A stretch of DNA of 64,000 bases. It comes from Deltaproteobacteria bacterium. Its GTDB lineage: Bacteria > Desulfobacterota > GWC2-55-46 > JADFVP01. Positions 5,217-64,000 of the stretch are shown piece after piece; position 1 is the stretch's first letter, and every line of letters begins with the position of its first letter. The translations under genes were made by a program, and so were the position numbers. The notes under the pieces are model-generated. The model saw only the letters and a program-made list of their open reading frames with translations, was not told the DNA's origin and searched no databases. The DNA lies in NCBI GenBank assembly GCA_029262515.1, contig JAJCZH010000026.1:1-64000 (forward strand), in the 5' to 3' direction.

Positions 5217-6755
5217 TCAGATCAGATGTCCGCGGCTTTCGAGCTTCTTGTACTCAAGCCTGTTCAGGGCATTGATGTACGCCTTGGCGCTCGCCAGTAT
5301 TATATCCGTATGCGATCCTTGCCCGAGCACTATGCGCTCACCTTCCTGTACGCGCACGGTTACCTCGCCTAGCGCATCCGTGCCGCCGGTTATAGCGGTA
5401 ACCGAGTATCTAAGCAACTTCGAGCCTGTTCCGGTAATCGAGGAGATCGCCTTGAAGACCGCGTCAACAGGCCCGTCGCCGGTTAACGTCTCGGTAACCA
5501 GCGCACCGTTAAGCTCAATTCCGACTTCGGCCTCCGGCTGGATAGTAGTACCGCTTCTAACGTCAACATGTACGAGTTTGAACTTCTCGTCATACTCGGT
5601 CCTCAGTACCTCTTCCTGAACAATCGCCTCTATATCTTCGTCAAAGACCTCTTTCTTTTTATCCGCAAGGCTCTTGAAGCGCACGAAAGCCTTATTGAGA
5701 TCACTCTCATCGAGATCGAAACCGAGTTCACAGAGACGCTCCTTGAAAGCGTGGCGCCCGGAGTGCTTGCCGAGAACGAGCGTAGACTTCGAGAGCCCCA
5801 CGGACTCGGGAGTCATGATCTCGTACGTGCTCTTCTCCTTCAACAGGCCGTCCTGATGAATACCCGACTCGTGCGCAAAGGCGTTGTCGCCCACTATAGC
5901 CTTGTTGGCCTGAACCGACATGCCGGTTATGCCGCTAAGCAGACGCGAAGAGGGGTAGATCTGCTCTGTGTTGACGTTCGTGTCGAGTCCGAGCAGGTCT
6001 TTACGGGTCTTCAAGATCATGACGATCTCTTCAACAGAAGCGTTACCCGCCCGCTCGCCTATTCCGTTTATCGTGCACTCGACCTGACGCGCGCCGTTGG
6101 TTATGGCTGCCAGTGAGTTTGCTACCGCAAGACCTAAATCGTTATGGCAATGTACGGAGATGATCGCGTCCCCAATATTTGGAACGTTATCGACTATACC
6201 TTTTATGAGTTCGCCGAAGGAACCGGGCAGCGCATAACCGACCGTGTCAGGTATATTTACCGTCCTTGCTCCGGCAGCGATTACCGCCTCGATTACGCTC
6301 CAGAGATAAGCCGGCTCCGTACGAGAAGCATCCATGGGACTGAACTCCACATCATCGACATAACCTTTGGCGTGAGTTACCATATCGACCGCCCGCCTCA
6401 GCGCCTCGTCGCGCGTGAGTCTGAACTGGTGCTTAAGGTGAATATCCGAGGTTGAAATGAACGTGTGGATACGCGGCTTCGGTGCGCCTTTGAGCGCCTC
6501 CCAGGCCGAATCTATATCCTCTGGTTTAGCGCGCGCAAGCGAGCAGATGGTCGGCCCCTCCACTTCATGAGCGATGCGCCTGACCGCCTCGAAATCTCCG
6601 GGTGAACTGAACGCAAAACCTGCCTCTATTATATCAACGCCGAGACGCGCGAGCTGACGAGCCACCGTCATCTTCTCATCCACATTCATGGAAGCGCCGG
6701 GAGACTGCTCTCCGTCGCGAAGCGTTGTATCGAAAATTCTGACTATATTATCCAT
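5217..6755 (-). CDS. leuA: 2-isopropylmalate synthase LeuA
   Basis: The first committed enzyme of leucine synthesis (acetyl-CoA + 2-ketoisovalerate). The N-terminal TIM barrel shows [11 protein letters not shown] and the metal/active-site motifs [18 protein letters not shown] and [15 protein letters not shown]. The C-terminal ~120 residues form the LeuA regulatory domain, which binds leucine for feedback inhibition in this family. The length of 512 is typical. Citramalate synthase (CimA) is the main alternative; full leuBCD linkage favours LeuA. It lies 21 bases after pssA, so they probably share a transcript. Confidence 0.94.
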
Positions 6756-6776
6756 AACAGACCTTCTGTTCTTTAC

Positions 6777-7589
6777 CTATCTATGATGAAGTTTCAATTC
6801 CTGTTTTTCCAACTCTTCCTTGGCGGCGTTTGCCGCTTTCCTGCGTCTTCTATCGAGCAGCGTGGTAACCGGGCCCGACATGACATAAAGAAAAGATAGA
6901 ATAAACAGCATTAGCGGCGGCTCGGCGGCCACGGCAATCAACAGAAAAATAGCGCCTACCAGAAGCCCGAAAGGCATCCTCTGCGATAGATTCAACTCTT
7001 TAAAGCTGTGGTACTTGACGTTGCTTATCATAAGGAACGCCAATAAGTAGACGTATGCAAGAACAATAACGTACTTCGACACCTCATCTCCGAGGCCGAA
7101 GTGATTGTAGAGAAGGATAGTCGAAGAAATCAACATCGCGGCCGCAGGAACAGGCAGTCCGTTGAACCTCTTGTTCTCAATAGTTGAAACCTGCACATTG
7201 AACCGCGCAAGCCTTAGAGCCGCACAGACTACATATAAAAAGGCCGCAAGCCAGCCGTAACGGCCAAACGACCGAAGCCCCCATGTAAAGATCAGGAACC
7301 CGGGAGCAACGCCGAAGGCGATAAGGTCTGCGAGCGAATCGTACTCAACACCGAATTTGGACGACGTACCGGTAAGGCGCGCCACGCGGCCATCGAGGCA
7401 GTCGAAGACGCCGGAGATAATTATGGCTACCGCGGCATGAACGAAGTTACCGTCGAAACTGGCAACAATAGCGTAAAACCCGCCAAAGAGGCTGACCGAT
7501 GTAAGAATATTCGGCAGAAGATAGACACCCTTCTTCGCCCGCTTCTTTCTCTTACTCGGCGGTTCGCTATTTATCTCTTTGTCTAACAC
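6777..7589 (-). CDS. pssA: CDP-diacylglycerol--serine O-phosphatidyltransferase PssA
   Basis: A membrane enzyme making phosphatidylserine from CDP-diacylglycerol and serine. The CDP-alcohol phosphotransferase signature DG-x2-AR-x8-G-x3-D-x3-D is complete (DGRVARLTG, then FGVEYDSLADL). About six to eight hydrophobic helices follow a basic N-terminus (PSKRKKRAKKGVYLLPN). It is followed by leuA and preceded 14 bases away by psd, whose product decarboxylates PssA's product to phosphatidylethanolamine. Confidence 0.93.
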   Translation of the reverse strand: MLDKEINSEPPSKRKKRAKKGVYLLPNILTSVSLFGGFYAIVASFDGNFVHAAVAIIISGVFDCLDGRVARLTGTSSKFGVEYDSLADLIAFGVAPGFLIFTWGLRSFGRYGWLAAFLYVVCAALRLARFNVQVSTIENKRFNGLPVPAAAMLISSTILLYNHFGLGDEVSKYVIVLAYVYLLAFLMISNVKYHSFKELNLSQRMPFGLLVGAIFLLIAVAAEPPLMLFILSFLYVMSGPVTTLLDRRRRKAANAAKEELEKQELKLHHR

Positions 7590-54785: not shown

Positions 54786-56156
54786 TTACTTGGCGCTCGC
54801 CTGCTCCGCCAGCTGTGCCTGTTCCTGCTGTGCCTGTTGATTCTGGCGAACCCTCAATTTACCGAGCCGTATCCACTGCAAAAGCGGCCTTTTTGACGGA
54901 CAGACATAAGAGCAACAGCCGCACTCAATACAGTCGAAACCGCCCCAACCGTTAAAATCATCGAGGCGCTGCATGTTTCCGTAATCGCCCAGCCTGTACG
55001 GCATAAGCGCCATAGGACAGGCCTCAACGCAACTTGCGCACCGAATGCACGCATCATACTTCTTCGGTTTGATGACTTCGCCCATAAGGGCCGTTATGCC
55101 AGAAGTACCTTTTATGACAGGAACATCGAGCTGCATCTGGGCTATACCCATCATAGGGCCGCCGTTCAGAACTTCGAACTCGCCGCCCTCTTTAAGTCCG
55201 CCGCACTGCTTTATGATCTCCTCAAAGGTAGTGCCTATTCTACAGAGCAGGTTTTTCGGCTCCTTAATACCGTTGCCGCTGACCGTTACCACCCGCTCGA
55301 TAAGCGGCTTGCCGTAATTGAGGGCATCGAAAATCGCGGCTGCCGTGCCTACGTTATTTACAACCACGCCAACGTCGAGTGGAAGTTTGCCCTTTGGAAC
55401 CTTGCGGTTTAAGGCGGCCTTTATAAGCATCTTCTCAGCACCCTGCGGGTACTTTGTCTCAAGCTCTATAACTTTTATATCGGTGCAGGACGGGCCGAGC
55501 GCCAACTTTATCGCCTCAATCGCATCCTTCTTATTATCCTCAATACCTATAAAACCGTTTGGCGCTCCTACGCCCTTCATAAGCGCGCGCATGCCCCAGA
55601 CAACCTTGTCAGCCTCTTCGAGCATAATTCTGTGGTCGGCCGTAAGGTACGGTTCGCACTCGCAGCCGTTAAGGACGATGGTATCTATCTTCTTTCCCTT
55701 CGGCGCATTGAGTTTTACGGCGGTCGGAAAACCGGCCCCTCCCATACCAACAATACCGCTCTCCCGTATGGTCGTGCGAATAGCGTCAGGAGTAAGGGAG
55801 GCTAGATCTACCGTAACCCCGCCTGATGTGCCCCAATCCTTCTTCTCACCGTCTCCGGTTATTACGATGGAGGGCACCTTCATGCCGACCGGGTGTTGAT
55901 AGAGGTCTATCTCTTTGACCTTTCCACTTATAGACGCATGAATAGGGGCTGAGACAAAGGCCTCCACATCGGCGATCTTCTGCCCCTCTTCTACCACATC
56001 ACCCTTCTTGACCAAAGCGGTACAGGGCGCGCCGGCGTGCTGCCTCAGAGGGATTATGACGGTCTTTGGAAGCGCCGCCGGGGTAATCGCCTTTGAAGAG
56101 GCCAGCTCTTTGTTATAAGCCGGGTGTATGCCTCTATCGAATGTTTTTAAGCCCAT
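54786..56156 (-). CDS. rnfC: Rnf complex subunit C
   Basis: The NADH-interacting peripheral subunit with FMN and two [4Fe-4S] clusters. GIVGMGGAGFPTAVKLNAP and NGCECEPYLTADHRIM form the nucleotide region; CIRCASCVEACPMAL and CIECGCCSYVCPSKRP hold the clusters. Length 456, ending in a short Gln/Ala-rich tail (QQAQQEQAQLAEQ). It is the first gene of rnfCDGEAB. Confidence 0.95.
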   Translation of the reverse strand: MGLKTFDRGIHPAYNKELASSKAITPAALPKTVIIPLRQHAGAPCTALVKKGDVVEEGQKIADVEAFVSAPIHASISGKVKEIDLYQHPVGMKVPSIVITGDGEKKDWGTSGGVTVDLASLTPDAIRTTIRESGIVGMGGAGFPTAVKLNAPKGKKIDTIVLNGCECEPYLTADHRIMLEEADKVVWGMRALMKGVGAPNGFIGIEDNKKDAIEAIKLALGPSCTDIKVIELETKYPQGAEKMLIKAALNRKVPKGKLPLDVGVVVNNVGTAAAIFDALNYGKPLIERVVTVSGNGIKEPKNLLCRIGTTFEEIIKQCGGLKEGGEFEVLNGGPMMGIAQMQLDVPVIKGTSGITALMGEVIKPKKYDACIRCASCVEACPMALMPYRLGDYGNMQRLDDFNGWGGFDCIECGCCSYVCPSKRPLLQWIRLGKLRVRQNQQAQQEQAQLAEQASAK

Positions 56157-56880
56157 AATTTTATTGGAGTTGAACTTTTATCAGTACCATTATACCGCCC
56201 ATTTAATCAAGAAAATTTTACTCTTGAATCAAGAAGCAGGCAGGCACAAAAAAACCGTGCGAACAGATACAGAAGCTCTTAAAGAGCCCCGCAAATGCCC
56301 AGACGGTCGGCAACCTACATATAACTTCCGCTCCACGGTGGTTCTATCCACCCAGTATCCCGTCAGTCACGAAAGTGTTTATATTTAATATACAGTAAAA
56401 GCTAAAAAGGGGCTTCTGTCAAGTAGTTCATATGAATAATGACTGTTTTTATGCCACAGTAGCACGGCAGAGAAGTGTCAATGGTACATAGTACACCTAC
56501 TTACTGCGCATCATCGAGGAAGTCATAGGTTTACCGATTAACAAAGGTATTAAAACTCCCGAAACAAATAATGGGCACAACCCAACCTGCATGGCTGTAG
56601 GACACCTTATAGTATTACAAAAAAATATATACACACAACCGCAGAAGTCTTACTGAGGCCTTAATATCATAAATGCAAAAAAACGGCATTAAAATTCTCT
56701 ACACTTACAGATAACTTAATAAACCACTAATATATGTGAATTAATTGGAATTCAGGTACTTATGCGCATTCATTCTAGTTATTTTTCTTACATTTCTTAT
56801 GCACTTTAAAAAATCAGAAGTTATGGCTTTTTTGCCTATCTAGTTAATAAAATCAGCCAGTTAGAAAGCATATGCAAACT
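56157..56880. other. Gene-poor region upstream of rnfC
   Basis: No intact gene. On the minus strand GGTATAATGG (56192-56201) is a possible rnf -10 without a good -35, and TTCTTGATT occurs twice (near 56208 and 56229), the outer one within CTTGATTCAAG, a possible operator. From ~56510 the plus strand reads LLRIIEEVIGLPINKGIKT in frame for about 50 codons to a stop, without a start, perhaps a gene remnant. A REP-like fragment (CAACCCAACCTGCATGGCTG) lies at 56579-56598. Confidence 0.4.
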
Positions 56881-56985: not shown

Positions 56986-57622
56986 ATGCTCAAAAAACTT
57001 TCAGTTTTAATTATGGCGATTGTTACGACTGTCGCTATCACAAACACCCAAGGCCTCCACATATGCTATTGGCATGGCTGAAGGTTCCAGCGTTCACGCC
57101 GCAATGGGTGGTTCACCGCACTACCCTACTCTGTGGGCCGGCATATAAGGCTACGGTACGGACTATCTTATTACTTACTTGACTTTCGACCTTACATCTA
57201 TCGGCAGTGGAGAGACGATAACGTCTATCTCCCTTTCCGGTTCCACAAGAACTTATTCTGGCGATTCGGTAATAAACGCTTACCACGTCAACGACGATTC
57301 ACTTGGCGGCCTTGGTTACCCGGGCCTCACTTATAACGGTTTTCATAACTATGACTCATACCTTGGTACCGAATCACAGAGCGGTATTGGCCCTTACAGC
57401 TGGGATATTTCAGCATACGATTACTCGGCTGACCTGGTAGATAACACCCTGACAATCGCACTCGCTTCGGATGCCCGTGCCACAGGTGGTCATTGGGTAA
57501 GCTTTAACAGGGACATGAGCCTGAACATCAATACGGCCTCCGTACCCGAACCCTCTACACTGCTCCTTCTCGGCAGCGACATAGCAGGCTTCGGATTTAT
57601 CAGGAAAAGATTCAAGAAGTAA
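56986..57622 (+). pseudogene. PEP-CTERM exopolysaccharide-sorted protein, broken
   Basis: The start MLKKLSVLIMAIVTTVAITN is a signal peptide. Within ~20 bases the coding continues in the next frame (KASTYAIGMAEGSSVHAAMG), which then meets an in-frame TAA at 57146-57148 and resumes GYGTDYLITYLTFDLTS. The rest is open to a complete PEP-CTERM signal: VPEPSTLLLLGSDIAGFGF then RKRFKK. Two lesions in the first third suggest a pseudogene. The intact C-terminus implies that the lineage has or had an exosortase (EpsH/XrtA) system. Confidence 0.7.
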
Positions 57623-62042: not shown

Positions 62043-63239
62043 ATGCATACCACTACCATATTCTGCCGACTTCGGCGCTCTCTGTTACTACTGACAGTAG
62101 CGGCAATCGCGCTGGTACTTATCTCTGCTCCGTACTCAAATGCAATCACGCTGCCCGAGACCGAGCACAGCGCTTTTCTGAACGATTTCAGCGAAGGCTA
62201 CAGGGCGGGTAAAACCCACTTTATCACCAACCTGATAAAAGAGAACCAGCGCAAGGTACGCCCGGTGGTACGTACGCTTATAGAAGAGGCGAAGAATAGA
62301 GATTATAACGAGCGCATGGAGCTGCTCGACATAGCCAACGCTATTGCCGCCATGCACAAGCACTGGAACTACGACGAAGAGCCGCTGAAAGAGGTGGAGG
62401 CGGTTCTCAAAGCAGAACTTGAGCGCGAACAGGCGCGGGCGGCAGAGGCTGCAAAGTGGGCCGCATTCGAGAAGTACCCCGGCAACCTGCTCTTTAGAAC
62501 AAATCCCGAAAGCCTTGAGAGGAACAGAGTGGCTCCGGTCGTCTTTGCGCACTGGAAACACAGGCTGCTCTTCGAGTGCTCGGCCTGCCACGACTCTCTC
62601 TTTAGTATAGATAGAAGCGCCAGCGCTATGACACCAGCAACCGCGCACAAAAAAGAGTTCTGCGGCGCATGCCACGACTCCAAAACCGCCTTCGGCCTGA
62701 TGAACTACGAGACCGACTGCATCCGTTGCCACAATACGGAAACAGAAGAGAACAAGCAGGTCTATACCGCAAAATACGACCTCGGTCTCTCCTCCAAGAA
62801 AGCTGGCCAGCTCGGAGGAAAACTCGGCAAGCTAAAAGACGGGAAACTGCCAGAAGACCGCTTTGGAGACATTAACTGGGTTGAGCTTGGTAATAGCGGA
62901 GCTTACAAGCCGGTCTCTAAAAAAATGACTGGCGCCGAGAAGAGTTCAAGCGCCATCCTCTTCGAGGTTCCCCCGGCCGCAGCATGGATAGGGGCCGTAC
63001 CGTTCAGGCATAAACAACATAGCCCGGGCATCGAGTGCTCCACCTGCCACTCATCTCTATACGCGAAAAAGGCTGGAGGCAGCAAACACGCCACAATGGA
63101 AAGTATGGCCGATGGAAAATCGTGCGGAGCCTGCCACAACAAGGTCTCGTTCAAACTCGCCGACTGCATGCGCTGCCATACGAACGGCCTCTCGGACGAA
63201 GAGCTTGGCAAGATGCTGAAAAGAGATACCGGAGAGTAA
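62043..63239 (+). CDS. Six-heme c-type cytochrome with two three-heme (c7-like) modules
   Basis: 398 residues. Signal peptide SLLLLTVAAIALVLISA. After a helical N-terminal third there are two repeats: VVFAHWKHRLLFECSACH, CGACHDSK, CIRCHNT, and VPFRHKQHSPGIECSTCH, CGACHNK, CMRCHTN. Each has three CxxCH sites and upstream F-x-H-x2-H ligands, as in cytochrome c7/c3-type and 'nanowire' three-heme domains. It is a probable periplasmic or outer-surface electron carrier, with no visible relation to the five-heme pair at 42-45 kb except class. Confidence 0.88.
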   Translation: MHTTTIFCRLRRSLLLLTVAAIALVLISAPYSNAITLPETEHSAFLNDFSEGYRAGKTHFITNLIKENQRKVRPVVRTLIEEAKNRDYNERMELLDIANAIAAMHKHWNYDEEPLKEVEAVLKAELEREQARAAEAAKWAAFEKYPGNLLFRTNPESLERNRVAPVVFAHWKHRLLFECSACHDSLFSIDRSASAMTPATAHKKEFCGACHDSKTAFGLMNYETDCIRCHNTETEENKQVYTAKYDLGLSSKKAGQLGGKLGKLKDGKLPEDRFGDINWVELGNSGAYKPVSKKMTGAEKSSSAILFEVPPAAAWIGAVPFRHKQHSPGIECSTCHSSLYAKKAGGSKHATMESMADGKSCGACHNKVSFKLADCMRCHTNGLSDEELGKMLKRDTGE

Positions 63240-63380: not shown

Positions 63381-64000
63381 TTAGACAGTAAAACTGTTAT
63401 TGAGGTCTTCGTGCCGCCGCCACCTAAATGGCAGGTCGACTATCGTGCCCGGCACCTTGATCTCGACCAGGGCCTTTAAGGCGCTAAGCAGAACCGTCGC
63501 CTGCTGCTCTACATTGCCAGGCTCGCCAACGGGGTGCCCCATAGGCCAGTGCAGAAAGACCGCCCTCGGCGCCTTGACATCCTCTGTAAGTTTTCTGACT
63601 ATCGTAATAGCGATCGTAGGAATACCGGCCGCCTCTATCTCTCGCTGTATCAGTCCGACGGACCGATTGCAGGTGACTCAACCGGGTGTCAACAGAACTA
63701 TATCAACGCCATCGGCTACAAGGTTACGGGCTATCTCCGGGGCACTCTTCGTTACAAGCGTCTCCACATGCTCCCCTGTTATATGGCCCATGCAAGAGTA
63801 GTTGGTTGGAGCGAGCGAGCCCAGCACGCCGCCATCCACAAGCTCCCTTATACGTGTTACCGGAAAGACTACGTTTATGTCGCGCCCGGCGCTGCTATGG
63901 TCGTAGTAGTCGTGGGTTATCATGTACTGGTCCAGCGGGGTATCCATCGGCATGGCCCTGTATGTAGGGTCGCCGTCAGGATCGACCATGTCGTAAGGAG
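63381..64000 (-). CDS. GrdB-family selenoprotein (glycine/betaine/sarcosine reductase selenoprotein B-like), 5' truncated
   Basis: The frame enters from the right edge and runs to a TAA at 63381, with one in-frame TGA at 63678-63680. Before it are family-like segments GDPTYRAMPMDTPLDQYMI, THDYYDHSSAGRDINVVFP, TNYSCMGHITGE and VDGVDIVLLTPG. After it come VTCNRSVGLIQREIEAAGI and HWPMGHPVGEPG. Reading TGA as Sec gives a U-V-T-C redox motif like the UxxC of GrdB. Both sides are equally protein-like, and a SECIS-like hairpin follows. The substrate is unknown; GrdA/GrdC genes are not in the window. Confidence 0.85.
63649..63667 (-). promoter_or_regulatory. SECIS-like hairpin after the in-frame UGA
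   Basis: In the mRNA AUCGGUCC-GUC-GGACUGAU forms an eight-pair stem (one G-U) with a three-base loop. It begins 11 nt and its loop lies ~19 nt after the UGA, inside the coding sequence, in the position used by bacterial SECIS elements. Confidence 0.7.

Follow-up and report, generated by a model that had tools for sequence, protein, structure and literature searches.

The window, by which we mean the whole 64,000-nucleotide stretch of contig JAJCZH010000026.1 analysed here, ends inside a gene predicted to encode a PrdB-like selenoprotein. The gene starts with an ATG codon at C26:64193 of the contig, 193 bases past the window edge, and stops with a TAA codon at positions 63383-63381 of the minus strand. 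Translation of this frame yields a protein of 270 residues with only one in-frame TGA, at residue 172 (LLTPG-U-VTC-NRSVGLIQ), past which conserved protein extends for about 98 residues. An earlier note, made from the sequence of the window, had described a frame broken by a single TGA, without naming the strand, and a U-V-T-C motif at the break. The minus-strand frame agrees with this description, and the codons directly after the TGA are GTC ACC TGC. The 103-residue fragment that the note expected from gene callers proved to be an artefact of the window edge; the true fragment ahead of the UGA, which an ordinary gene caller would give, has 171 residues.

Features of the window, with coordinates counted from its first nucleotide.
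Feature	Position	Strand	Basis
PrdB-like selenoprotein gene (in-window part, about residues 66-270 and stop)	63381..64000	minus	ORF; read-through translation; Pfam GRDB and NCBIfam PrdB/various_sel_PB matches
In-frame UGA, assigned to selenocysteine 172, opening the U-V-T-C motif	63678..63680	minus	TGA at the aligned codon of homologous loci except one genome; Cys (TGC) in two alphaproteobacterial homologues
Cys175 codon (TGC), presumed resolving partner in the UxxC motif	63669..63671	minus	Column invariant across 46 family members
SECIS-like hairpin AUCGGUCC-GUC-GGACUGAU	63649..63667	minus	8 bp, 3-nt apical loop; RNAalifold consensus
Multihaem (CxxCH) cytochrome c-type protein	62043..63239	plus
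Small secreted-looking protein	57179..57622	plus	C-terminal PEP-CTERM-type motif (VPEPSTLLLLGSDIAGFGFIRKR)
ZMP/ZTP riboswitch	56290..56380	minus	RF01750, 59 bits
rnfC	54786..56156	minus

The multihaem cytochrome gene is convergent with the selenoprotein gene. Elsewhere in the window, the ZMP/ZTP riboswitch lies directly upstream of the start of rnfC, which is followed by further genes in an apparent rnf operon. Control of an Rnf complex by ZTP is, to our knowledge, unusual, and a literature search for this pairing found nothing.

The read-through protein matches the Pfam family GRDB (PF07355) with 48.7 bits, against a gathering cut-off of 22, and TIGR01918 with 72.1 bits (cut-off 65.45). The best NCBIfam model is PrdB (TIGR04483), whose score of 206.4 bits falls under the equivalog cut-off of 300; the same model was matched by all 46 family members scanned. 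The GrdB model TIGR01917 gave 69.5 bits against a cut-off of 602, and matches to the GrdB, GrdF and GrdH models are restricted to their C-terminal halves (the last ~200 of 431-435 positions) and score well under the equivalog cut-offs. Thus, the GrdB-family label proposed in the earlier note stands at the level of the GRDB superfamily, but the protein is nearer to PrdB than to GrdB and its active-site signature is unlike both. Residues invariant in 46 members (numbered as in the homologue L025) are H66, H100-D-Y-Y-D-H105, M141-G-H143, U178 and C181. PrdB and GrdB share an HGGYD motif instead, and GGGG or VGN stands where the PrdB-like family has GHI. On these comparisons the protein is a member of the GRDB/PrdB superfamily that is closest to PrdB, and it most likely belongs to neither glycine nor D-proline reductase.

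The partners of these reductases are missing as well. The model for the PrdA/GrdE pyruvoyl subunit (PF09338) had no match in the genome that carries the gene (2.5 Mb in 38 contigs, 98% complete), in 191 of 196 relatives or in 41 of 44 wider genomes with a PrdB-like gene, PrdA absence being read from this one Pfam model in draft genomes. GrdA, which the earlier note had suggested as a partner, is also absent from the gene's own genome (GRDA, PF04723); it was found in 9 of the 196 relatives. No prdA, prdC, prdD or proline racemase gene occurs among the neighbours of the PrdB-like gene, and clustering of the ORFs around 50-odd loci produced no shared operon. The largest neighbour cluster resembles generic ABC ATPases and the next resembles sensor kinases and response regulators, as read by eye. 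A small cytochrome upstream (L002:4341-4730, minus strand) and the multihaem cytochrome downstream are kept in near relatives only. Conservation of neighbouring genes thus stops at the closest relatives, and the organization of the locus fits a single-gene function. Annotated PrdB genes adjoin prdA on plasmids of Enterococcus, Ligilactobacillus and Terrisporobacter. The prdB gene of a Peptoclostridium acidaminophilum plasmid (L113:5013-5726) has no prdA within the flanking 5 kb, and its product groups with true PrdB.

Among the alternatives to a stand-alone enzyme, a genuine D-proline reductase subunit PrdB, with a PrdA partner that was missed or has diverged, accounts for the choice of PrdB as closest NCBIfam model, for the 37-42% identity to annotated PrdB over most of the protein and for the filing of such sequences as "proline reductase PrdB" in surveys. 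Against it are the score under the cut-off, the lack of a PF09338 protein in the gene's own genome and in most carriers, and the presence of HDYYDH and GHI in place of HGGYD and GGGG. Moreover, the prdA, prdC, prdD and racemase neighbours are absent, whereas the plasmid PrdB genes examined mostly adjoin prdA. We regard this explanation as improbable. A GrdB-type subunit of glycine, sarcosine or betaine reductase, the reading of the earlier note, finds support in the Pfam GRDB match and the common UxxC motif; it is contradicted by the partial and low-scoring alignment to the GrdB models, by the lack of grdA and grdE in the genome and by the lack of HGGYD in the protein, and appears very improbable. 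Altered residues on the presumed substrate side, combined with the loss of the pyruvoyl partner, suggest that the PrdB-like protein may act on a different substrate.

Conservation of the UGA codon was analysed in 84,980 species genomes, scanned with peptide patterns that each lie wholly on one side of the TGA. The scan recovered 57 loci encoding relatives. Among the 196 relatives, 74 genomes have a match, nearly all matches with the TGA. Wherever the match of a locus covers the aligned codon, this codon is TGA, except in two copies from one genome (G020), where GGA (Gly) replaces it at L027:6508-6510 (L092 is the same locus by sequence). The remainder of the gene and the hairpin are intact in this carrier, and the GGA could reflect a recent mutation, decay or an assembly error. 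The TGA is kept at the same codon across Desulfobacterota/Deltaproteobacteria, Nitrospirota, Chloroflexota, Gemmatimonadota and others; titles of the carrier records include Deltaproteobacteria, Nitrospirae, Nitrospinota, Chloroflexi, Gemmatimonadetes and SAR324. Distant alphaproteobacterial homologues from Roseomonas and Haematobacter have TGC (Cys) at this position, a replacement that the earlier note had proposed to look for, and homologues continue past it. Relative to the nearest sequence, substitutions at first, second and third codon positions number 11/4/41 after the TGA and 16/11/61 before it, third positions dominating on both sides, which points to purifying selection downstream of the TGA. 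Because this codon is TGA from locus to locus and conserved protein continues after it, the in-frame TGA is not due to chance. One Thermodesulfovibrionia bin has two PrdB-like selenoprotein genes about 2.4 kb apart (L048:4821 and L048:7260), of which the second shares just 38% identity with the query.

The UGA is followed by a SECIS-like hairpin whose first paired base lies 11 nt after it. In a gap-free alignment of 48 loci covering 48 nt from the UGA, the 8-pair form has standard pairs in 94% of cells. Compensatory changes amount to 15 double changes, compared with 3.6 in shuffled alignments, these cells counting related sequences rather than independent events; three pairs are changed on both sides. 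In one case, CAG TCC..GGA CTG becomes CAA TCC..GGA TTG, a double change that is synonymous on both sides. In another (TCC..GGA to ACG..GGT), a Ser to Thr replacement is balanced by a synonymous change in a Gly codon. Such synonymous and cross-codon double changes seem hard to explain by selection on the protein alone. Rfam gave no SECIS match within the window, and the stability of the hairpin in the single sequence is unremarkable (z-score -1.09). Directly downstream of the UGA, the conserved hairpin is placed as a SECIS element would be, and its binding by SelB is predicted.

The earlier note had reasoned that the selenocysteine genes must lie outside the window, and this is where they are found. 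Neither outcome that the note would have counted as a refutation, a genome free of selenocysteine machinery or homologues ending at the UGA, was thus observed. The genome has selA (487 bits) and tRNA-Sec (67.4 bits), and a search of its contigs identified selB and selD. The selD gene (G000:C8:239042-239965, locus L020) adjoins selB and is probably itself a selenoprotein gene, since one in-frame TGA interrupts it. Within the class, 38 genomes have both the PrdB-like gene and selA, 4 the gene only, 6 selA only and 15 neither (Fisher one-sided p = 1e-6, a value that ignores phylogenetic relatedness). Carriers from Herpetosiphon and Chloroploca have selA too; the cultured strain Herpetosiphon aurantiacus DSM 785 (locus L071) is among the organisms with the gene. 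Four of eight examined carriers without a selA match still have tRNA-Sec above the gathering score; thus, missing assembly pieces account for part of the exceptions. In a few carriers (G004, G040, G215 and G218) selA or tRNA-Sec went undetected, which speaks against the selenocysteine reading; most of these are fragmented metagenome bins, but G004 is rated 97% complete.

These data bear on two further alternatives. If the TGA were a real stop, the gene would be a pseudogene, the product of a sequencing error or a source of a truncated 171-residue protein. The unremarkable stability of the single hairpin sequence would suit this view, but the spread of the same TGA codon over several phyla, the selection past it, the cysteine found at the position elsewhere and the full set of sel genes are at odds with it. 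The conservation pattern already refutes a real stop, unless all of the independent assemblies share one error, and we consider this exceedingly unlikely. Reading of the UGA by a suppressor or as tryptophan can be dismissed with similar assurance, given the presence of tRNA-Sec, selA, selB and selD, the occurrence of Cys rather than Trp in homologues and the conserved hairpin after the UGA; no evidence in favour of such a reading came to light. Insertion of selenocysteine at positions 63678-63680, as first proposed in the note, is therefore nearly certain.

In a maximum-likelihood tree of 74 rows, the four PrdB rows nest within the stand-alone family, and a topology constrained to unite the stand-alone members in a group that excludes PrdB was rejected (p-AU 0.012). 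The nesting depends partly on three rows (L061, L075 and L076); when these, the nearest ones, were removed together with GrdB, PrdB still fell inside the family on a long branch, with 87-89% bootstrap support. Descent of true PrdB from inside the stand-alone family is thus favoured, with moderate support, rather than proven. For L025, a close homologue, AlphaFold2 gave a confident model (pLDDT 90.1, pTM 0.90); it had no Foldseek match in the PDB at E <= 0.001, and a sequence search of the PDB found no credible match. The best VIA-align hit, microcystinase C, reached a Z of 8.9, near the range expected of common alpha/beta arrangements, and no function was read from it.

We consider it very likely that the gene encodes a stand-alone PrdB-like selenoprotein. 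SelB carrying Sec-tRNA-Sec, guided by the hairpin just downstream, would insert selenocysteine at the UGA, and the protein, in contrast to GrdB and PrdB, would need no pyruvoyl subunit to act. We are likewise highly confident that it is a stand-alone reductase distinct from the GrdB and PrdB complexes, and selenol-thiol chemistry is the most likely basis of its predicted activity. From the UxxC motif and what is known of GrdB and PrdB, we infer that Sec172, through its selenolate, attacks or reduces a small substrate held close to the invariant HDYYDH and GHI residues. Cys175 would then resolve the product as a selenenyl-sulfide, to be re-reduced presumably by a thioredoxin-type donor. More tentatively, and as a proposal that could well prove wrong, PrdA-independent selenoproteins of this type (HDYYDH/GHI/UxxC), widespread in Deltaproteobacteria/Desulfobacterota, Nitrospirota, Chloroflexota and others, may perform an uncharacterised stand-alone reduction, and clostridial D-proline reductase may owe its catalytic subunit to recruitment from inside the family, upon the gain of a pyruvoyl partner. 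If so, a selenium-dependent reductase without a pyruvoyl subunit would alter the picture of how Stickland reductases originated. In practical terms, annotation of carrier genomes is prone to credit them with glycine or proline reductase, or to split the gene in two at the UGA.

Among known systems, PrdB offers the closest comparison. It belongs to the same superfamily and length class, and has a UGA-encoded selenocysteine in a UxxC motif with similar flanking sequence. Beyond the score and the missing PrdA, the two differ in the signature (HDYYDH and MGHI against HGGYD and MGGGG) and in about 30 family-specific N-terminal residues (KNKLLARVITRFP...) that PrdB lacks. GrdB, GrdF and GrdH are the substrate subunits of glycine, sarcosine and betaine reductase. 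They have a homologous C-terminal half with the UxxC selenocysteine motif (PF07355, TIGR01917/TIGR01918). Unlike the PrdB-like protein, GrdB is about 435 residues long, with an N-terminal domain that has no counterpart here; it needs GrdE and GrdA, both absent from this genome, and its motif reads UGTCTRC rather than UVTCNRS. The alphaproteobacterial proteins annotated as "glycine/sarcosine/betaine reductase selenoprotein B family protein" (for example Roseomonas WP_207415257.1 and Haematobacter WP_035710215.1) are of the same superfamily and also have no visible reductase operon, but they carry CxxC, with Cys for Sec at the aligned position, are ~30% identical and lack HDYYDH. In Roseomonas haemaphysalidis, the gene for the homologue (L115:4887-5795) has as its convergent neighbour a gene for a SelO adenylyltransferase (5800-7272).

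Recoding of UGA in a PrdB-like gene is in itself ordinary, because UxxC selenoproteins named "proline reductase PrdB" had appeared in earlier surveys. They were reported as abundant in Sargasso Sea and GOS metagenomes (PMC1088965, PMC2398784), "proline reductase" selenoproteins were described in Anaeromyxobacter and Geobacter uraniireducens (PMC1794560), and TIGR04483 was retained as D-proline reductase in a 2026 review (PMC13188914). What makes the present finding interesting is independence from PrdA: a literature search on "PrdB-like" selenoproteins returned nothing, and in the papers examined we found no description of survey-type PrdB sequences that bear an altered signature and come from genomes lacking PrdA. 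Matched by description, the survey sequences are, like ours, UxxC selenoproteins of non-clostridial bacteria, and they very probably include relatives of the gene studied here. They are filed there as proline reductase, and counts of abundant environmental "proline reductase PrdB" may be tallying a different enzyme.
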